The notes below the pieces were generated by a model that searched no databases, had not been told where the DNA came from, and worked only from the letters and a program-made list of their open reading frames with translations. DNA of 64,000 bases, from positions 1 to 64,000 of the forward strand of contig CANSYK010000004.1 of NCBI GenBank assembly GCA_947651225.1, read 5' to 3'. The position numbers and the translations under genes are program-made. The stretch comes from an uncultured bacterium. GTDB lineage: Bacteria; Bacillota; Clostridia; Lachnospirales; Lachnospiraceae. Positions within the stretch are counted from its first letter, which is position 1, and every line of letters begins with the position of its first letter. Below, in pieces: positions 46,105-54,174 of the stretch.

Positions 46105-47355
46105 TCATTCAATTTGTAAATTTTTCATCACTTCCTCGAGCCGTCTCCCATATCCTTCTCGGAAAATCAGACACGAAGCGCAGTCCGGTGCCATAATATC
46201 CGTCTTGTCATAGCACAGGGCACTTGCCCGGCATCCTCCGGCACAAATCTTTGCATATTCACAAGCTCCGCATTCCTCTGTATGCTTTAAGAATTCCTCC
46301 ACACGGGTGTCAATCAGCTTCATGTAGGTCGAATCCGTCAGCCCCTGACGCAATCCTTCCTCGGTAATAAGAGGATATTCTTCCTGTATGTCATAAGAGG
46401 ACAAGGACATACACGGAAGCATACGCCCTTCCGCTGACAGGTACATCACCTGCCTCGCATGACCACATGCAGTCTGATTAAGGCAACTGTCCCCGCCATC
46501 ATACTTCTTTAGCGGAATCGACCATCTTACCTTCTCCCCGCCATATGAATCCTTTCCATTACATGAGAAGAACCCGCCAAGCATCAGCGACAATGGCCTT
46601 CCATCCTCAAAGTACGCCGGGATGTATTCCAGATAGGTTTCCAGTGTTTCTTCCATCGAAATCGAATAATCCCCGCCAAGCCGTTCCCACAGCTCTGTTT
46701 CCGATACCGGATTTGTTTTCAAATGCGAACAATGGTGCCTGGCAAGTGTGCGGATGCTCTGGCGCAGCAGATGTTTATTCCCTTGATGGATACAAAGTTC
46801 AGCGCCGGTCGGGAAACCCATTTCATAACATAAATCAAATGCATTAAGCACAGCTTTACCCGCACCCGGAATTCCCCTGAGCCAATCATGCCATCCTTCA
46901 TCCCCATCATAGCTCATATTAAACTCTGGCTTAATCCCCCTTTGGGAAAGTCCCTGAAGCAATGCTTCATTTACCAGAGCGCCATTGGAATAAATAGTCC
47001 GGATGTCAATATGGCGGTCAAGCAAGGCGTCTACAATCTCCCACCAGTCTTTGCGTATCAGCGGCTCCCCTCCGGTAAGTGTTACCGACATCACGCCACA
47101 TTCTTCCAACTGGCCTATGATATCCATAATTGTCTCATGGGACAATTCCCCATACTTTGCCTCCGGCGCGGACATATAACAATGCCTGCACTTATAATTA
47201 CATTTTCCTGTAATAGACCAATGGGCAGTACGGATAAAACGGTTTTGATATTGACGGTATTCCTGGTCCGGCGCCAGCCCTTCCCCATAACTGCAAGGCT
47301 CCACGATATCTCTTTCAACAGCCATACGGATAAGCTCCTTTGTCCGTTCCGGCAC
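46105..47355 (-). CDS. Radical SAM/SPASM peptide maturase (main open frame)
   Basis: 416 residues from a GTG at 47355. The radical SAM cluster is 'SITGKCNYKCRHCYM' (CxxxCxxC, Cys52/56/59), followed by 'SVTLTGGEPLIRKDWWEIVD'. The C-terminal SPASM region is Cys-rich: 'CGHARQVMYLSAEGRMLPCM', 'HTEECGACEYAKICAGGCRA' and 'DIMAPDCASCLIF'. The family modifies cysteine-rich RiPP precursors, for example by thioether or C-C bonds; the exact reaction is not readable. It is the last gene of the cluster, directly after the precursor. The GTG start has no good ribosome site; the true start is probably at 47474 in another frame (see the separate entry). Whether the short form works is unknown. Confidence 0.9.
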   Translation of the reverse strand: MPERTKELIRMAVERDIVEPCSYGEGLAPDQEYRQYQNRFIRTAHWSITGKCNYKCRHCYMSAPEAKYGELSHETIMDIIGQLEECGVMSVTLTGGEPLIRKDWWEIVDALLDRHIDIRTIYSNGALVNEALLQGLSQRGIKPEFNMSYDGDEGWHDWLRGIPGAGKAVLNAFDLCYEMGFPTGAELCIHQGNKHLLRQSIRTLARHHCSHLKTNPVSETELWERLGGDYSISMEETLETYLEYIPAYFEDGRPLSLMLGGFFSCNGKDSYGGEKVRWSIPLKKYDGGDSCLNQTACGHARQVMYLSAEGRMLPCMSLSSYDIQEEYPLITEEGLRQGLTDSTYMKLIDTRVEEFLKHTEECGACEYAKICAGGCRASALCYDKTDIMAPDCASCLIFREGYGRRLEEVMKNLQIE

Positions 47356-47474
47356 TATTTTTAAGTCACAGTCACACTTGCCGTTACAGAGGCTTAATGC
47401 GTCAAATGCCTCCCGGCTTAAAAATTCAACAGTATTCCGGGGGCGCAGGATTCCTTTAAACGATAATATCCCAT
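47356..47474 (-). pseudogene. Frameshifted N-terminus of the radical SAM maturase
   Basis: An ATG at 47474 follows AAAAAGGAG at good spacing and reads 'MGYYRLKESCAP', then runs into a stop after 18 codons. If the five-G tract at 47439-47443 (five C on the coding strand) had one more base, translation would go 'MGYYRLKESCAPRNTVEFLS' and 'REAFDALSLCNGKCDCDLK' straight into the maturase with no stop. This segment resembles the PqqD-like leader-recognition region that opens many peptide maturases. So the real gene is probably 46105-47474 with a one-base deletion. Confidence 0.7.
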
Positions 47475-47477
47475 AGC

Positions 47478-47624
47478 TTACTCCTTTTTGGCAGCTCTAA
47501 ACCAATCTTCATATTTTACCTCTTTTCTGCGCTGCCTTTTGCCTATACTGCAATGTTTGTGCGGGCAGCGCTTAATCACAAACCTGCCATTACAGAAACA
47601 TTCTTTATTATGGTTCTGGGTCAA
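47478..47624 (-). CDS. Small Cys/His-rich ORF between precursor and maturase
   Basis: 48 residues from a TTG that overlaps the precursor stop codon (TTGA), or 62 from an ATG inside the precursor. It contains 'NKECFCNGRFVIKRCPHKHC' and a basic end 'KYEDWFRAAKKE'. The stop is 3 bp before the maturase ATG, and its last codons carry the maturase ribosome site. The tight packing and the CxC and CPHKHC pattern suggest a real small protein or metal-binding peptide, but I do not recognise it and it could be an old maturase or precursor fragment. Confidence 0.4.
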   Translation of the reverse strand: MTQNHNKECFCNGRFVIKRCPHKHCSIGKRQRRKEVKYEDWFRAAKKE

Positions 47625-48013
47625 TACCCCATTCCATCCCCTAGGCCGCCTATTACACATACACAACGTTCCTTGCCATTTTTGTATTCTCCGCCGCCGC
47701 CAAATACACAGGCGCAGGTTTTATTATTTGTCCCAAAGTCATCGTTGATGCCTCCTTCCCCACCGCCGCCAATTGCGCAGAAACATAGGTTCGCATCTGC
47801 CATTGAACCACCGCCTGTCACAGCTTCTAATTCGTCATCTGCGAGCTCTCCCTTGCTTGCCGCTGGTTGAAAATCCGCCTCGGTAAGTTCTAAACCGTAT
47901 TCTGCCGCTGCCTTAATAAAATCTTGCGGCGTACTGTCAGGAGCCTTGTCCAGTTCTTCGATTTTTGCTTTTAGCTCCAGATTTTGTTCAATCTTCTCTA
48001 AAATATCTTTCAT
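47621..48013 (-). CDS. Nif11-like leader RiPP precursor with three CxC-glycine repeats
   Basis: 130 residues, GAAAGGAAAAGACA before the ATG. Residues 1-68 form a Nif11/NHLP-type leader: helical 'MKDILEKIEQNLELKAKIEE', 'PQDFIKAAAEYGLELTEADF', and the cleavage region 'ELADDELEAVTGG'. The C39 peptidase of the upstream exporter would cut after the Gly-Gly. The core (69-130) has three repeats, 'CFCAIGGGGEGG', 'CACVFGGGGEY' and 'CVCVIGGLGDG', with Cys at 77/79, 100/102 and 117/119. It is the likely substrate of the radical SAM maturase. The mature product may be one peptide or several repeat units. Confidence 0.85.
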   Translation of the reverse strand: MKDILEKIEQNLELKAKIEELDKAPDSTPQDFIKAAAEYGLELTEADFQPAASKGELADDELEAVTGGGSMADANLCFCAIGGGGEGGINDDFGTNNKTCACVFGGGGEYKNGKERCVCVIGGLGDGMGY

Positions 48014-48162
48014 TGTCTTTTCCTTTCTTTTAAATCCATTTACAGCCGATACTTCTTTAAAGATTATGCCGTCTTTCCAATTCCATCTGACCCCTTACAA
48101 AATCGGCCATTCGCTCATTCCTCCTCCTTGTCCTAACACAAATATCAAACACTTAGGAGCTG

Positions 48163-48431
48163 TTAAATAAGGTCACTTATGGAAACATAGTGGGCACCAT
48201 CCCCAACGCCGGATATCACACAGGCACATCTGCAGTCGCCATTCGTGTATTCTCCACCTCCTTCAACCATGCACCCACATGGCTCTCCTCCTGCCACGGC
48301 ATCCAGTTCATCGTCCGTAAGCTCTCCCTGCTCAATTGCGGGTTTAAAGCCTTCTTCCTTAATCTCTATCCCGTATTCCGCAGCTACTTGGATATAATCC
48401 TTTGGGGCGCTTTCTAAATTTACTTCTTCAT
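48163..48431 (-). pseudogene. Second cysteine-rich RiPP precursor, N-terminally decayed
   Basis: A minus-strand frame reads 'EEVNLESAPKDYIQVAAEYG', then 'QGELTDDELDAVAGG', then the core 'EPCGCMVEGGGEYTNGDCRC' and 'ACVISGVGDGAHYVSISDLI'. The core aligns with repeats two and three of the intact precursor (CxC, GGGEY.NG, CxCVI.G.GDG). A ribosome site and ATG stand at 48431, but that ATG is in another frame and stops after three codons. About 20 leader residues are missing compared with the first copy. The frame has no normal start codon, so it is probably a decayed duplicate. Confidence 0.7.
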
Positions 48432-48472
48432 GTCTTTCTCTCCTTTCTTTTTCTGCCTGATTGTTCTTATTT

Positions 48473-48512
48473 TATATAGTAAACGCATTTGTTTTTGCGT
48501 TGACTTCGTATA
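48473..48512. repeat. Palindrome, TATAGT-AACGCAT family
   Basis: TATAGTAAACGCATTTG, then TTTTTGCGTTGACTTCGTAT, has a stem AACGCA / TGCGTT with outer imperfect pairing. It resembles the palindrome at 36191-36230 and lies just after the ECF sigma stop codon, where it may end that transcript. Confidence 0.45.
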
Positions 48513-48520
48513 GCAGCCTT

Positions 48521-49024
48521 TTAATCCTGTTCCAGCCATTTTCTCATCCTGCCAAGCGTCTTCTTATGTATCACACGGGTGTTACTGTATGACATTCCCA
48601 TTATCACTGCGATTTCTTTCAGGCTCTTATTTTTGTAATAGTGCAAAAGAACCAGGTCACGCTCTCGCTCTTCCAGGTTTTCCAGTGCATTTGCAAGCGC
48701 ATCCAAAGACTCTTCCCTCAAAATTCTCTCCAGATTTCTGTCCTGTTCCGGCAGCTGTGGCAATTCCCCACATAACTTCATGGGTGATTCCCGTCCCCTT
48801 TTCCTGTAATAGTCGATGACCACATTATGGGTAATTGCATAAATCCAGGTAGAGTGCGCCGCTTTTTCCTCGGAAAAACTATCAATATTCTGGCATACCT
48901 TCAAAAACACCTGCGATACCATATCCTCCACATCCTGAGGAGTTTCCACCCGGCTTCGTATGTAAGTTTCCACCTTACCTGAAAAGCACTGATAAAGTTC
49001 CTGGAGCAATTCATTATTCTTCAT
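48521..49024 (-). CDS. ECF-type sigma factor in the RiPP cluster
   Basis: 167 residues from the ATG at 49024 after GGAGG; the longer frame to 49084 overlaps the upstream gene. Region 2 is 'TPQDVEDMVSQVFLKVCQNI' and 'STWIYAITHNVVIDYYRKRG'. Region 4 is 'LVLLHYYKNKSLKEIAVIMG' and 'MSYSNTRVIHKKTLGRMRKW'. Its start overlaps the leader-like small gene by 11 bp. A sigma factor inside an NHLP cluster probably controls precursor expression, which would explain the separate precursor unit downstream. Confidence 0.88.
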   Translation of the reverse strand: MKNNELLQELYQCFSGKVETYIRSRVETPQDVEDMVSQVFLKVCQNIDSFSEEKAAHSTWIYAITHNVVIDYYRKRGRESPMKLCGELPQLPEQDRNLERILREESLDALANALENLEERERDLVLLHYYKNKSLKEIAVIMGMSYSNTRVIHKKTLGRMRKWLEQD

Positions 49025-49214
49025 GCCATTCCTCCATAAGCTTACATTCCTGTCCTCCCCTATGCCACACCTCACCGGCGGCATTAACCAGTGAGAGGTT
49101 TTCCTCTGTCAGCTCTTCCCCATACTTGCCTTCTAGTTCCTGCAGCATCTCCTCTATTCTGTGGTTTTTCTGGAAACGCTGATAATCTAATAAAAATATG
49201 AGTTTTTCTTCCAT
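49014..49214 (-). CDS. Small leader-like protein overlapping the ECF sigma gene
   Basis: 66 residues: 'MEEKLIFLLDYQRFQKNHRI', 'EEMLQELEGKYGEELTEENL' and 'SLVNAAGEVWHRGG'. The segment 'LTEENLSLVNAAG' is like the LSDDELE.V.GG end of RiPP leaders, followed by only about 18 residues. It overlaps the sigma gene by 11 bp, so they are translationally coupled. It may be a sigma-partner peptide, an anti-sigma-like protein, or a RiPP-like peptide; the short tail lacks Cys repeats (only one Cys). I cannot assign a function. Confidence 0.7.
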   Translation of the reverse strand: MEEKLIFLLDYQRFQKNHRIEEMLQELEGKYGEELTEENLSLVNAAGEVWHRGGQECKLMEEWHEE

Positions 49215-49307
49215 CTGTATCCCCCGCCTTTCCCGGACCTCCCACTGCCTAATCTATTTATTGATACGCTTCACTTCGGACGAGCGCCAAGATTTTTTAA
49301 AAAATTT

Positions 49308-51485
49308 TTACTCCGCCTGTTGTCTCGCCACAAGCTGTGCAAAATAGCCGTTTAACTCTAATAATTCTGTATATTTCCCATCTTCAATAATTTTTCCGTC
49401 CTGCAATACAATAATCCGGTCACACTGCCGTATCGTTGAAAGCCTGTGTGCAATTACAATCCTCGTACATTTTAAGTTATCCAGAGCCTCCGAAACCTGC
49501 TTTTGCGTCAGATTATCAAGCGCACTTGTCGCTTCATCAAACATCAGGATTTTCGGCTTAGGCGCTACCGCACGCGCAACCAACAGTCGCTGACGCTGTC
49601 CGCCTGAAATACCTCCTCCGCCTTCCGAAATTACCGTGTGCATTCCCATTGGCATACGCCGGATGTCTGCGGCAATGCCAGACATTTCCGCCGCCTCCCA
49701 TGCATCATCCAAAGTCAGCCACGGTGCAGAAATCACAATATTTGAGAAAATATCACCAGAAAAAAGCTTGCCATCCTGTAACACCACGCCAATCCTGCGG
49801 CGCAGGGATTTTAAGTCAATCTTAGCCAAATCCTTCCCGTCGTAGTAAACCGCTCCTTTCTTCGGCATTTCAAATCCTAACAACAGGCGCATAAGCGTAG
49901 ATTTTCCGCATCCTGTCGCCCCCACAATTGCCACATACTCCCCCGGCTTTACCTTCAATGACAAATTGTCAATGACATACGGCATGGAATCGTTATACCG
50001 GAATAAAACATTGTTTAGCTCTATGCCGCCGGAAAGCCGTGTCACTACCTGCTTGTCCCCGGATACCTCCGGCGCCTCGTCAAGCACAGGGCGCAGCATT
50101 TCCATCACAGGCTTAATCTGCGCCACTGTCAATGCTGCCGAAGAAAGTGCCTGAAATGCCCCGCTTACCATTCCGTATGCTGTCTGGAACGCATAATAAT
50201 CCGCTGTACTTACACCACTTTTGATTGCCGCCCAGTACATGGCTATCGTGCCAATAGAAGAGATGGCAAGGGTAATTACACTGGTCAATTTCAAAAATAA
50301 TGGGGGATTCCAATTCATGGCCGCTTCCTTCGCATAAATTCCCGCCCATTTGGAAAATGCACGTTTCTCCGCCCCGGAAAGCCGGATTTTCTGCACACCC
50401 GCAATCAGGCCATAACTAACGCCTTTTTCCTTTGCCTGAAACTCCATCTGCTTTCTCAGCACTTTAATCTGCACAAATGAGGATACAACAGATATAAAAA
50501 GGGTAAGCACCATAACCACAACCGCCGGAATACACAATGCCGGGGCATAACGAAAAATCTGCGTAATATATACAAGGGAAAATACAGAAGTCAGCCCTGT
50601 AGAAAGCACTGCGTCCGCAGTAAGCGTACAGAGTACATCCGCTTTCTGTATCCGGCTTGCCAGTTCTCCTGCATTGTAACCCTTAAAAAATGACGCCGGC
50701 AGCGACAGTATGCGCATCATCACTGCCGACTGTACAGACATACCCATTTTTGCCTTTATCCTTGCCATACATAACGCCTTTACCGCCCCTAAGAGTACCA
50801 ACGCCCCAAGCACACATATCATAAACCATGCCATCGCATACAAAAGCCTGATACTGCCTGAAGGAATGACAAGAGAAAATATTATGTAATTCAATTTCGC
50901 CGGAAGAAGCCCCACAAGAGTCACAACAAACACTGCGGCTGCAACAAATGCCACATCCCATGCAGATAAGGTATTCAGGGCATATTTGAAAAAATCCCCA
51001 TAACTTACCTTGCAAAGCGGCAAAGGCTTATAAAAACAAATCGCCTCTTCCTCAAAATATTCTTCGTTCCTGTGATTCACCCGTATCCATTTGCCTGTGT
51101 CCACATCCAAAAAGCGATAACCGAATGCCGTCGGAATCAGGGCTGCAATGCGTTTCGTATCCCGCCACACGGCAAGAAATGGTCCTGTGGCATCTTTGTA
51201 CCATCCCTTTTCCAGCTTGACTGTACGCCGCATAATGCCCGTGGGACGCAGCAGATACTCAAGCTGTTCATTCATTCCCTGCAAATATTCCGGAAATTCA
51301 CGGATTTTAACATGGTAGAATTTCAAGATTTCATCCATGGCGTTCTGGGCTTGCTGCCTGTCATTTTCTAATGCCGCCGTCACCTTTTCTCCCATGACCG
51401 CCCCAGCCATCTTCACAAATGCTTCCTGGAACGCATCATCGTCATATTCCATCCGCTGCTTTATCTGGCCTTCAAACCATCCCAT
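49308..51485 (-). CDS. NHLP-type bacteriocin exporter, permease/ATPase subunit without peptidase
   Basis: 725 residues. The first 150 form a cytoplasmic domain ('LEYLLRPTGIMRRTVKLEKG', 'RIAALIPTAFGYRFLDVDTG') typical of the second ABC subunit of NHLP systems. Then come six membrane helices, and an ATPase with Walker A 'GATGCGKSTLMRLLLGF', signature 'ISGGQRQRLLVARAVAPKPK' and Walker B 'ILMFDEATSALD'. It lacks a C39 domain. It follows the peptidase subunit by 14 bp and probably pairs with it as one exporter. Confidence 0.93.
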   Translation of the reverse strand: MGWFEGQIKQRMEYDDDAFQEAFVKMAGAVMGEKVTAALENDRQQAQNAMDEILKFYHVKIREFPEYLQGMNEQLEYLLRPTGIMRRTVKLEKGWYKDATGPFLAVWRDTKRIAALIPTAFGYRFLDVDTGKWIRVNHRNEEYFEEEAICFYKPLPLCKVSYGDFFKYALNTLSAWDVAFVAAAVFVVTLVGLLPAKLNYIIFSLVIPSGSIRLLYAMAWFMICVLGALVLLGAVKALCMARIKAKMGMSVQSAVMMRILSLPASFFKGYNAGELASRIQKADVLCTLTADAVLSTGLTSVFSLVYITQIFRYAPALCIPAVVVMVLTLFISVVSSFVQIKVLRKQMEFQAKEKGVSYGLIAGVQKIRLSGAEKRAFSKWAGIYAKEAAMNWNPPLFLKLTSVITLAISSIGTIAMYWAAIKSGVSTADYYAFQTAYGMVSGAFQALSSAALTVAQIKPVMEMLRPVLDEAPEVSGDKQVVTRLSGGIELNNVLFRYNDSMPYVIDNLSLKVKPGEYVAIVGATGCGKSTLMRLLLGFEMPKKGAVYYDGKDLAKIDLKSLRRRIGVVLQDGKLFSGDIFSNIVISAPWLTLDDAWEAAEMSGIAADIRRMPMGMHTVISEGGGGISGGQRQRLLVARAVAPKPKILMFDEATSALDNLTQKQVSEALDNLKCTRIVIAHRLSTIRQCDRIIVLQDGKIIEDGKYTELLELNGYFAQLVARQQAE

Positions 51486-51499
51486 AGCTGCTCTGCCTC

Positions 51500-53680
51500 C
51501 TATTCACTGCTGACAAGCTTTGTATAAAGTCCCCCTGCAGCATATAATTGCTCATGTGTGCCGCGTTCTACAACTCTTCCATTGTCCATGACAATAATCT
51601 CGTCGCAATCCCGTATTGTAGAAAGTCTGTGCGCAACGACAATACATGTTATCCCCCGGTTCTTAATCGATTTGACGACCTCATATTCCGTCTTTGCGTC
51701 AAGTGCACTGGTCGCCTCATCCAATATGATAATGGTAGGATCCTGCGCCAGCACCCTCGCAATCTCCATACGCTGTCTCTGACCTCCGGAAAAATCCTTA
51801 CCGCCTTCAATAATTTTGTACTGGTATCCTCCGTCGCGCTGCATGATATCTTCGTGAAGCTGCGCATCCCTTGCCGCCAGAATCATTTCAAAATCCTCAA
51901 TGGAATGGTCCCACATCTTAATATTGTTCGCAATGGTATCCTCAAAAAGAATAATATCCTGGTCAACAACAGCAAGCGAACCTGAAAAAATATATGGCTC
52001 AACCGAATCAAAAGGCTTCCCATCAAATAATATTTCACCCTCCCATGGCTGATAGAGGCCGGAAACCAGCTTTGACAGTGTAGATTTTCCACAACCGGAG
52101 GCGCCCACAAAGGCAACCCGGCTGCCCTGTTCAAGCGTAAGGTTAAAATCCTTGATTAACGGCGGCGCAAACCTTGAGTAACCAAACGTAACGTTCTTCA
52201 TCTCAATTTTTCCCGAAAGCTTCGCATAATTGACGCTTTCCGTATCCGTATTACCGTAGGTATAACGTACATCCTGCGGATATTCCATCACATCTTCTAC
52301 CCGCTCCATCTGCGTACGCATTTCCTGCAAGCTCTGGCCTGCCTGTATCAACTTCATCGCAGGAGTGGTAAAAGAATTCAGAAATCCCTGGAACGCCAAA
52401 ATCATACCCTCCGTAAACTTCCCACCTATTACCAGATAAACACCAAGCAGCGTTACAGCCGTATTCGTCACTACGCTAACAAGCTGTGGAACCAGACCGA
52501 GATAGGCATCTAGCTTTGTATACCGCTTCTGCCCTGCAAAAGCGCCTGCCTGGTAACCCGCCCACTTTTCAAAATATCCGTTTTCCGCGCCGCTGGCCTT
52601 AATGGACTCAACCATCTCAATACCGGATACTGTCATCCCTGAAAGCTTGCCGGAATCCTTTAGCTGCACCCTTGTAATATCAATACGCCTTTTTGATATA
52701 AAATGCGACATTGCCAGATTAATAAATACAGACAACACACCAATAACAGTAAGCGCCGGGCTGTAGCTAAGCATTGCCGTAAGGTACACCACCATCATGG
52801 CCGCATCAAGCACCAGTGGGGCAAACGTATCTATCAGTGTCTTTGCAACCGCTGCATTGTCCTCCTGCCTCTGCTGGATATCTCCCGCCATGCGCTGTGA
52901 AAAAAACTCCATCGGCATATGCAGCACATGCCACAGAAAAGAACTGCTTCCTGTCACAGCAAGCTTTCCGCCAATGCGCAGGGAATATACCGCGCGCATC
53001 CACTCCACTACAATCTGCAAAGCCACAATACCACACATGGCAAGAAAGAATCCTCTGCACCAGTCCAGATTAACCCCTGTCAGCAAACGGTCCAGGAAAA
53101 TCCTGGAAAAAATCGGATTAATTATCCCAATCACCGACACTACCAGAGATGTCAGCACAACAAATATAACTGCCACTTTTGTCCCCTGCAATTTCTTCTT
53201 TGCAAATGACAGCATACTTTTGGGTTTTCCCTCCGGCTCAAAAGTCTCCTCTGGCTCAAACAGCAGGCAAACCCCTGTAAAAGATTCGTCAAAAGTTTCC
53301 ATGGTCACACTGTATGTTCCCTTTGCCGGATCATTCAATATAGCCTTGCCTTTCTTAAACCCATTTAACACGACAAAATGATTGAAATTCCAATGAATGA
53401 TACATGGAAATGTTCCCTGCTGCCGCAGCGTTTCCGGTTCATACCGATATCCCTTTGCATTCAGTCCATAACCTCGTGCCGCACGCAGTATATTCTTTGC
53501 ACTGGAGCCGTCCCTTGATACACCGCAGTCTGCACGTACCCGCTCTAACGGAAGCCATTTTCCATAATAGGCAAGTATCATCGCAAGAGAAGCCGCCCCA
53601 CATTCTAACGCCTCCATCTGCATCACCACCGGAACCTTTGCACAGCTATTCTTCACCGGCTGCCTCTGTACTCTTCCCAT
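51500..53680 (-). CDS. NHLP-type bacteriocin exporter with C39 peptidase domain
   Basis: 726 residues from the ATG at 53680 after TTGAGGTGG; an ATG seven codons earlier overlaps the adaptor gene. The N-terminal C39 peptidase has catalytic Cys in 'QMEALECGAASLAMILAYYG', His in 'IIHWNFNHFVVLNGFKKGKA' and Asp in 'ILNDPAKGTYSVTMETFDES'. Six membrane helices follow, then an ATPase with 'GASGCGKSTLSKLVSGL', 'FSGGQRQRMEIARVLAQDP' and 'IIILDEATSALD'. It cuts leaders after Gly-Gly and exports the core. It forms the export module with the adaptor and the second subunit. Confidence 0.95.
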   Translation of the reverse strand: MGRVQRQPVKNSCAKVPVVMQMEALECGAASLAMILAYYGKWLPLERVRADCGVSRDGSSAKNILRAARGYGLNAKGYRYEPETLRQQGTFPCIIHWNFNHFVVLNGFKKGKAILNDPAKGTYSVTMETFDESFTGVCLLFEPEETFEPEGKPKSMLSFAKKKLQGTKVAVIFVVLTSLVVSVIGIINPIFSRIFLDRLLTGVNLDWCRGFFLAMCGIVALQIVVEWMRAVYSLRIGGKLAVTGSSSFLWHVLHMPMEFFSQRMAGDIQQRQEDNAAVAKTLIDTFAPLVLDAAMMVVYLTAMLSYSPALTVIGVLSVFINLAMSHFISKRRIDITRVQLKDSGKLSGMTVSGIEMVESIKASGAENGYFEKWAGYQAGAFAGQKRYTKLDAYLGLVPQLVSVVTNTAVTLLGVYLVIGGKFTEGMILAFQGFLNSFTTPAMKLIQAGQSLQEMRTQMERVEDVMEYPQDVRYTYGNTDTESVNYAKLSGKIEMKNVTFGYSRFAPPLIKDFNLTLEQGSRVAFVGASGCGKSTLSKLVSGLYQPWEGEILFDGKPFDSVEPYIFSGSLAVVDQDIILFEDTIANNIKMWDHSIEDFEMILAARDAQLHEDIMQRDGGYQYKIIEGGKDFSGGQRQRMEIARVLAQDPTIIILDEATSALDAKTEYEVVKSIKNRGITCIVVAHRLSTIRDCDEIIVMDNGRVVERGTHEQLYAAGGLYTKLVSSE

Positions 53681-53691
53681 ATGCCACCACC

Positions 53692-54174
53692 TCAATTCCA
53701 TAAAAACGACATCGGAGATACGCTTTCCACCACAATCTGCGCCTCATACTGCCCATCCGAAACAGCGTCCCCTGCCGGCTGTGCATCAATGGCGAACACA
53801 AAACTGTCCCCCTCAAAACCACCAAGATATTGGAGGTAAGGTTCTAAGCTGTCCGATACTTTCTCCGGACGTATGCTCTTTTTGCTCACAACGTACTCGA
53901 CGCCGGATACTTCTACGCTCATGCCCTCCTCTATCTCCTGAGCCTGCTCAGACGATACATAACACACCATATTGCCGCCATCTACGACCGCCGCAACAGG
54001 AAGCGTCGTTTTAAGCTCCCCGAAAAATCCCCAGACACAGACACCGGAAAGGAGAAGAAATACAGCTGCTAACACAAGCCACACACCTGTATTTACGACA
54101 CAAAGATACTGGTTAAACTGTTCTGGTGATGAGATTTTATCTAGACTTTTTTTCCGGAATATTCCATTTTCCAT
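53692..54174 (-). CDS. Short HlyD-like adaptor of the NHLP export system
   Basis: 160 residues. A short cytoplasmic N-terminus ('LDKISSPEQFNQYLCVV') precedes one transmembrane helix ('VWLVLAAVFLLLSGVCVWGF') and an extracytoplasmic barrel-like part with 'TLPVAAVVDGGNMVCYVSSE'. NHLP HlyD proteins are normally two to three times longer, with a coiled-coil hairpin that is absent here; short versions are plausible in Firmicutes, which lack an outer membrane. It is the first gene of the operon, 11 bp before the peptidase subunit. AAAGGAGG precedes the start. Confidence 0.75.
   Translation of the reverse strand: MENGIFRKKSLDKISSPEQFNQYLCVVNTGVWLVLAAVFLLLSGVCVWGFFGELKTTLPVAAVVDGGNMVCYVSSEQAQEIEEGMSVEVSGVEYVVSKKSIRPEKVSDSLEPYLQYLGGFEGDSFVFAIDAQPAGDAVSDGQYEAQIVVESVSPMSFLWN

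Follow-up and report, generated by a model that had tools for sequence, protein, structure and literature searches.

Systems in which ribosomally synthesized and post-translationally modified peptides (RiPPs) are made from Nif11-leader precursors and leave the cell through NHLP-type ATP-binding cassette (ABC) transporters were described by Haft, Basu and Mitchell in 2010 (PMC2887384). They combine a Nif11 leader ending in a double glycine, several precursors with variable cores and exporters of the families TIGR03796 and TIGR03797. Nif11-type precursors accompanied by a peptidase transporter and a radical S-adenosylmethionine (SAM) protein were reported in anaerobes (BMC Genomics 2014, PMC4289311), and the general recipe of a Nif11 precursor, an NHLP exporter and a radical SAM enzyme is already in print (PMC2887384, PMC4289311). 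Here we analyze a cluster of this kind found in a 64,000-nt stretch of DNA (the window) from an uncultured Lachnospiraceae bacterium (contig CANSYK010000004.1), whose precursor core is built of repeated C-x-C-x-x-x-G-x-G units (CxCxxxGxG for short). We consider it rather probable that this cluster type encodes RiPPs in which a maturase with a RiPP recognition element (RRE) and a SPASM domain would form six bridges from cysteines to glycine alpha carbons (C-alpha) before export by a C39-peptidase ABC transporter, and that the copy in the window is probably inactive.

The window differs from the systems of PMC2887384 in having a radical SAM/SPASM maturase, with no cyclodehydratase or LanM among the open reading frames (ORFs) tested, and a HlyD-like protein of about 160 aa. 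In PMC4289311, the Eggerthella lenta precursors have 121, 122 and 130 aa, and the text available neither shows nor excludes a CxC motif in them. Among characterized peptides with sulfur-to-carbon bridges (sactipeptides), ruminococcin C shares with our system the origin from gut Clostridia, an RRE-SPASM maturase (RumMC2), a CxC donor pair (Cys22/Cys24) in the first hairpin and, as a further likeness, two hairpin domains, but differs in its non-glycine acceptors (Glu31, Asn35, Arg53 and Arg61), longer bridge spacing, 19-residue leader and four bridges (PMC8188230). Streptosactin (GggB/StsB) resembles it in having small unnested rings in series and a Cys-to-Gly alpha-thioether, but is a 14-residue product with two bridges (PMC8172795), and the window enzyme stays below the cutoff of the StsB model (scores are given below). 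SkfB, the maturase of the sporulation killing factor, is the nearest solved sequence by profile and likewise has an RRE and a radical SAM core, but carries a Twitch domain with one auxiliary cluster (PMC6231123), whereas the maturase family of the window has SPASM cysteines. A literature search of article texts returned no description of a CxCxxxGxG Nif11 family, and figures or supplements may hold an earlier listing. Judged by sequence, the core and the maturase branch that accompanies it, which reaches the cutoff of none of the curated models listed, appear to be new.

The cluster and its core motif

Eight ORFs or ORF remnants were examined at 46105-54174, all on the minus strand and at the positions given by an earlier first-pass annotation (Table 1). 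In the order of transcription they are the genes for a mini HlyD-like protein, an ABC transporter with C39 peptidase, a second ABC transporter, a 66-aa ORF, an extracytoplasmic function (ECF) sigma factor, a damaged precursor, an intact precursor and a damaged maturase. Families were assigned by comparing scores with the cutoffs of NCBI curated models, and the C39-ABC transporter (934.9 vs 853.3 for TIGR03796), the second ABC transporter (711.3 vs 709.4 for TIGR03797), the intact precursor (36.0 vs 32.3 for the Nif11 leader model TIGR03798) and the sigma factor (98.4 vs 42.9 for TIGR02937) all score above them. With its Nif11 leader, double glycine and both exporters, the locus belongs to the Nif11-leader/NHLP-export group, in agreement with the minus-strand operon proposed by the first-pass annotation.

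The core of the intact precursor contains the units CFCAIGGGG, CACVFGGGG and CVCVIGGLG. That it consists of three unusual units had been recognized before, but the pattern given then, CxC[AV][IF]GG[GL]G[ED], is too narrow, being one case of the general form C-x-C-x-x-x-G-x-G. The general form has five matches in the six frames of the window, all inside the two precursor genes, compared to a mean of 0.1 and a maximum of one in 20 mononucleotide-shuffled windows, which rules out a chance origin of the motif.

The leaders and cores were surveyed with a profile made from seven precursors, which was run on the window and the relative loci, leaving out L001-L003 and L028 (duplicates) and also L031. 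It yielded 65 leader-like fragments, 48 with at least one CxC (142 units in total) and 17 without. Both glycines are kept in 133 of the 142 CxC units, position 7 being glycine in 97% and position 9 in 96%; four of the nine exceptions stem from a CRCxC string, in which CRC is read as an overlapping unit. C1, C3, G7 and G9 thus are almost fixed, while the neighboring positions 6 and 8 are looser (glycine in 48% and 47%, respectively). In 29 aligned precursors, six cysteines and five of six glycines are invariant, the sixth glycine is present in at least 90%, and the spacers vary in length and sequence. If the peptides are cut behind the double glycine, the core would have 62 residues in the window and 48-58 residues in bacterium D16-51 (locus L005), which holds an intact cluster. 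No further precursor was found elsewhere in the genome of the window (E 0.001), and nothing in PHROGs matched the precursor.

Core motif and maturase in related loci

We compared 24 loci related to that of the window, originating from Lachnospiraceae, other Clostridia, Candidatus Fimadaptatus, Pullichristensenella, Oscillospiraceae and goat Synergistaceae metagenome-assembled genomes (MAGs). CxC cores lie in the locus of the maturase in 16 of them (L004-L011, L013-L016, L019-L021 and L027), including a Synergistaceae MAG (L021). The expectation of the first-pass annotation that homologs keep the core repeats beside the maturase is borne out by these 16 loci, two of which are interrupted: L004 by a frameshift, and L015, where the visible unit has no G9, by a stop. 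In addition, the third unit is degenerate in the L020 precursors, and two regulator-like ORFs separate the maturase from the precursor in L011. Among the remaining loci, L024 and L025 have no leader match, the contig of L012 stops about 100 bases past the maturase, before a precursor could appear, and five loci with a leader but no CxC, which do not follow the expectation, are considered below. The number of precursors per locus ranges widely (nine in L027, seven in L007 and one in L008). Ten of the 24 loci contain both ABC exporters, and two others contain the second one alone; no ABC exporter was seen in the remaining twelve, which include many short contigs, L015 having none within its 10-kb flanks.

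The maturase tree comprised 28 rows (29 minus L027, a row of 13 aa), among them the partial L033 (283 aa); L015 and L034 were labeled as CxC despite degenerate cores, and L012 has no visible precursor. The CxC label changes four times on this tree, compared to a mean of 7.8 for shuffled labels, which is consistent with an old association of maturase and core that was lost in L022 and in the L017/L018 clade, the deep part of the tree being unsure because of long branches.

Precursor searches, in which the window's own genome was counted each time, matched four of 397 genomes of the family, five of 392 of the order and seven of 391 of the class. Most of the distant matches, those at the order and class levels, are Nif11 precursors with other cores; the motif occurs in two of the ten other genomes inspected at these levels, G700 (two three-unit cores, maturase 46% identical) and G650 (one unit, maturase 49% identical). 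The search with the maturase profile at E 1e-90 found 12 loci in ten of the 397 family genomes. The three loci with at least 45% identity carry full cores (the window and G157) or a degenerate one (G080), whereas nine loci with approximately 27-36% identity, two of them overlapping, have no C-x-C-x-x-x-G-x-G within about 1.5 kb; hence the motif accompanies a single branch within a larger family of Nif11 maturases. Plasmid carriage was rejected, since tblastn matched nothing at 1e-30 in 72,556 plasmid records, and so was viral carriage, as the four loci matched have at most 30% identity.

Predicted architecture of the maturase

The radical SAM/SPASM maturase recognized by the first-pass annotation keeps its radical SAM core and SPASM cysteines in the window, but its RRE-like part is cut by a 43-bp deletion that had gone unnoticed. 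The maturases of intact relatives have 460-482 aa, that of L005 having 470. The radical SAM triad (C106, C110 and C113) and six SPASM cysteines are invariant among the aligned maturases, and a seventh SPASM cysteine (C419) is present in 21 of 22. Cys345, six residues before Cys351, is found in 16 of 22 maturases; it is suggestive as a ligand of the first auxiliary cluster and could complete the ligand set as in anSME and SuiB (PMC6231123, PMC8188230). All 19 CxC-labeled maturases that cover position 242 (L005 numbering) have a cysteine there, within the strand AE[LM]C.H. This Cys242 is replaced by alanine in L017/L018 and by serine in L022, which have no CxC core; since several non-CxC relatives have the cysteine too, its role as a candidate active-site residue is suggestive only.

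In the comparison with RiPP family models, the Nif11 leader was recovered, but the maturase fell below the cutoff of every model listed: none of the best 25 of 86 matched models is reached by the window enzyme (top TIGR04250, 98.1 vs 400), and none of the best 25 of 76 by the intact L005 enzyme. For the window and L005, respectively, the scores are 70.6 and 74.3 with the StsB (streptosactin) model NF045574 (cutoff 625) and 58.6 and 58.8 with the PapB-type ranthipeptide model NF047865 (cutoff 340), and TIGR04103 (nif11-class peptide radical SAM maturase 3) gives 87.5 and 87.6 (cutoff 725). No model named for SCIFF (six Cys in 45 residues, PMC8326336), a class that has a maturase model of its own, is among these best 25 of either enzyme, no test having been aimed at SCIFF.

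Among solved proteins, the sactisynthase SkfB comes closest to the maturase profile (E 7.2e-21). An AlphaFold model of the L005 enzyme (mean pLDDT, the predicted local distance difference test, 88.9) has CteB, SuiB and SkfB as its top Foldseek ranks and aligns over nearly its whole length with SuiB (4-450) and SkfB (8-433), and over 92-470 only with CteB; a second aligner gave Z 23.3-24.7 for anSME, ChlB, SuiB and SkfB, and 22.4 for CteB. The N-terminal 93 residues modeled alone (pLDDT 86.7) resemble RREs, namely TbiB1 (probability 0.97), lasso B1 (Z 7.1), PqqD (5.9), CteB (5.6) and LynD (so named after PMC6231123). The N-terminal domain of the intact relatives may, with middling confidence, be considered RRE-like; as no single score is strong, this assignment relies on the agreement of many RREs and on the position of the domain. 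With it, the intact relatives show the gene arrangement of sactipeptides, in which a SPASM-type maturase with an RRE-like domain stands beside a Cys-bearing precursor, while in the window this domain is broken.

Disruption of the copy in the window

The maturase is intact in L004 (99% identical) and L005 (96%). Compared to L004, the window misses 43 bp near 47443, out of frame, whereas the 543 aligned flanking bases are identical. The frame starting at ATG 47474 is shut after 18 codons, and the rest can start only at GTG 47355, without residues 1-54, which rules out a full-length maturase. The invariant LRG of the RRE-like domain is among the residues lost. In L004 a 7-bp repeat (TCCTGCG) flanks the deleted stretch, and the window retains a single copy of this repeat, so that slippage fits the deletion.

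The first-pass annotation listed cysteine-rich Nif11 precursors in the plural; one is intact, but the second (approximately 48432-48163) is disrupted, which had been overlooked. Relative to the first precursor of L005, its leader misses 58 aligned bases early on, with a change of frame, and its core is 51 aligned bases, about one repeat, shorter. From the sequences on both sides of the scar (Table 1), a further precursor gene seems to have been lost between 47506 and 47486, at a junction common to the window and L004. With the second precursor broken and the third apparently lost, one intact precursor is left. Rescue by a second maturase was rejected, none being found in the genome at E 1e-10. 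In ThnB and RumMC2, deletion of the RRE spares SAM cleavage and abolishes bridging (PMC8188230). Given this precedent, the loss of the RRE-like part and the broken precursor, the pathway is probably inactive in this genome, unless the assembly is wrong.

A precursor of the nearest relative is also frameshifted near the end of the leader (L004, 173-228). Because of this second case, decay of the cluster may recur in the lineage, or both breaks may be sequencing errors. A cluster still intact in the living strain, the breaks in the maturase and the precursor being errors of assembly or sequencing, would be compatible with the proposed product; in favor of this explanation are the fragmentation of the genome into 167 contigs and the similar frameshift in L004, but we consider it unlikely, as two separate multi-base deletions within one cluster, a single TCCTGCG copy of the kind slippage would leave, and the open exporter and sigma factor ORFs speak against it.

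Proposed product and alternatives

In the proposed pathway, the Nif11 leader would be bound by the RRE-like N-terminal domain of the maturase, the radical enzyme would abstract an alpha hydrogen from a glycine, and the sulfur of a cysteine would close the bridge. Repeated unit by unit, this would give each module two bridges and a whole peptide about six (-12 Da). For the L005 cores, six bridges would lower the calculated mass from 4691.06 to 4678.97 Da (third precursor) and from 5221.28 to 5209.18 Da (second precursor). Once the C39 domain had removed the leader behind the double glycine, the product would be secreted by the paired ABC exporter together with the mini HlyD-like protein. The ECF sigma factor, to judge from its position, may control the genes. 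A sacti- or ranthipeptide thioether, as suggested by the first-pass annotation, is a reasonable reading, which narrows if the invariant glycines are the acceptors: with G7 and G9 in this role, the bridges could only be of the S-to-C-alpha (sactipeptide) type, since glycine has no beta carbon. As to the register, C3-G7 nested inside C1-G9 is favored by analogy, because the CxC pair of ruminococcin C closes bridges that lie one within the other (Cys24-Glu31 inside Cys22-Asn35), the ruminococcin C enzyme could use Gly as an acceptor when tested in vitro with a variant peptide (PMC8188230), and streptosactin has a natural Cys31-Gly34 bridge (PMC8172795). The families involved and the diversification of the precursor arrays suggest that the peptides are probably exported and play a bacteriocin-like role.

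Several observations weigh against this proposal. The 142 units come from related genes and were collected with a profile that itself contained the motif, and are therefore not independent samples. Five of the 24 loci (L017, L018, L022, L023 and L026) have a Nif11-type leader without CxC, and as these include L017 and L018, with maturases 58-59% identical, and L022 (45%), the enzyme family is not tied to the CxC core alone. The N-terminal domain by itself has no Foldseek match at E 0.001 or better (best 0.061), and in the second alignment its Z values are below 8 and NovN and GdmN outrank the RREs. NovN and GdmN are not known to be RiPP enzymes. For the whole model the Z ranking is topped by anSME (24.7), which is no RiPP cross-linking enzyme. 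As regards the bridges, C1-G7 with C3-G9 fits the spacing equally well, the glycines could be needed simply for turns or for metal binding, and known sactipeptides generally have one to four bridges, below six (PMC8326336).

If the cysteines were free or formed disulfides, the product would be a metal-binding or redox peptide and the maturase would perform another reaction. Metal thiolates would be compatible with a repeated CxC and glycine-rich loops, and CxxC cores resembling zinc ribbons occur in some Nif11 precursors that accompany more distant maturases, but chelation would need no strict GxG spacing, and SkfB, the solved protein closest by profile, is a sactisynthase. We consider this explanation quite unlikely. 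Thioethers with another register or other acceptors, at the C-alpha of non-glycine residues or, as in ranthipeptides, at C-beta or C-gamma, with the glycines serving as turns, are distinctly unlikely. The RRE-SPASM architecture is common to the ranthipeptide maturase CteB, the PapB family is matched weakly (see above), and freyrasin has six thioethers at beta carbons (PMC8326336, PMC8188230); on the other hand, no position of the unit besides the two cysteines and two glycines is dominated by one residue (maximum 48%), and therefore there is no common side chain to act as an acceptor. Finally, a C-C or C-O crosslink, a cyclopropyl ring or an epimer instead of a thioether, the chemistries of SuiB, TigE, EpeE and their kin, is very improbable even though these three are among the structural matches and Cys345 could supply an auxiliary-cluster ligand, as the near-fixed residues of the unit are Cys and Gly only, with no Trp, Tyr, Lys or other side chain.

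Layout of the locus and neighboring genes

Table 1. Features of the cluster in the window
Feature	Position	Strand	Remarks
Mini HlyD-like protein, 160 aa	53692-54174	-	overlaps next gene; TIGR03794 positions 1-46 only, below cutoff
NHLP export ABC transporter with C39 peptidase	51500-53701	-	TIGR03796 above cutoff; Peptidase_C39 E 1.5e-35
NHLP export ABC transporter without peptidase	49308-51485	-	TIGR03797 above cutoff
66-aa ORF (DYQRF..N.RL ... VNAAGE)	49014-49214	-	kept beside ECF sigma factor in relatives
ECF sigma factor	48521-49024	-	likely ATG 49024 overlaps end of 66-aa ORF; longest ORF reaches 49084
Disrupted second precursor	48163-48432	-	partial Nif11 leader and two CxCxxxGxG units (48279-48253, 48228-48202)
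Intact precursor, 130 aa	47621-48013	-	68-aa Nif11 leader ending VTGG and 62-aa core
Three CxCxxxGxG units of intact precursor	47785-47759, 47716-47690, 47665-47639	-	motif scan
Scar	47444-47587	-	DNA like that upstream of L005 precursors (47587-47506), then like that upstream of L005 maturase (47486-47444)
Original maturase start (MGYYRLKES..)	47418-47474	-	frame shut 18 codons on, after 43-bp deletion near 47443
Remaining maturase ORF	46105-47355	-	radical SAM core and SPASM cysteines; first 54 residues of intact relatives gone

The HlyD-like ORF scores far below the cutoff of the full-length model TIGR03794 (36.3 vs 156.2), so that this accessory feature of the export system is not assigned. 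Truncation was ruled out: in seven relatives with the ORF listed it has 154-185 aa, close to the length of the short adaptor noted in the first-pass annotation. The 66-aa ORF has no family match at E 1 and adjoins the sigma factor in eight relative loci; it ends (ELTEENLSLVNAAGE) in a way reminiscent of a Nif11 leader. A scan for promoters and terminators gave counts near those of shuffled sequences (17 vs 14.5 and 10 vs 8.1), so we claim no promoter. By eye, the stretch upstream of the 66-aa ORF appears conserved in the window, L005 and L007. Upstream of the first precursor, an AACGCA...TGCGTT palindrome is followed by an AT-rich stretch both in the window (48501-48425) and in L005 (8430-8505), and it is possibly a candidate operator, also seen by eye.

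Other observations concern related loci. In L017 (4474-4809) and L018 (1-222, the leader being cut by the contig end), Nif11 leaders have short tails in place of the CxC core. L006 (6320-8181) and L009 (5205-8147) contain, between the exporters and the sigma factor, a second set of Nif11 precursors, with CxxC zinc-ribbon-like cores, which comes with a divergent radical SAM protein (28% identical). Nif11 leaders with CPxC..C..C cores, possibly another uncharacterized core type, are found in L036, L040 and L041 (G012 and G968) near maturases of approximately 29-35% identity over the part covered. A very large ORF lies downstream of the maturase in two MAGs (L009, 14162-21247; L006, 14228-16936); that of L009, with 2362 aa, runs to the end of the DNA covered, and its start resembles by eye a non-ribosomal peptide synthetase.

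Implications for the family

The broken copy in the window is a warning against calling clusters functional from gene content alone, while the intact cluster of D16-51 makes the idea testable by co-expression. The C39 protease domain LahT150 has served to cleave NHLP/Nif11 precursors, and in the study concerned none of the radical-SAM-class clusters gave a modified peptide in E. coli (PMC9576775). The motif predicts two bridges per unit on two named glycines, glycine being a rare acceptor in characterized sactipeptides (PMC8188230). Natural variety is considerable: more than 40 precursor variants (48 CxC-bearing fragments) were seen, with up to nine precursors beside one enzyme (L027). We suggest, tentatively, that these peptides might form a distinct RiPP class with nested double rings in each CxCxxxGxG module and six S-Gly C-alpha bridges made by one Nif11-guided maturase, which would extend over Bacillota and a Synergistota MAG with one to nine precursors per locus. 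Six alpha-bridges, if true, would exceed the one to four usual in sactipeptides (PMC8326336).

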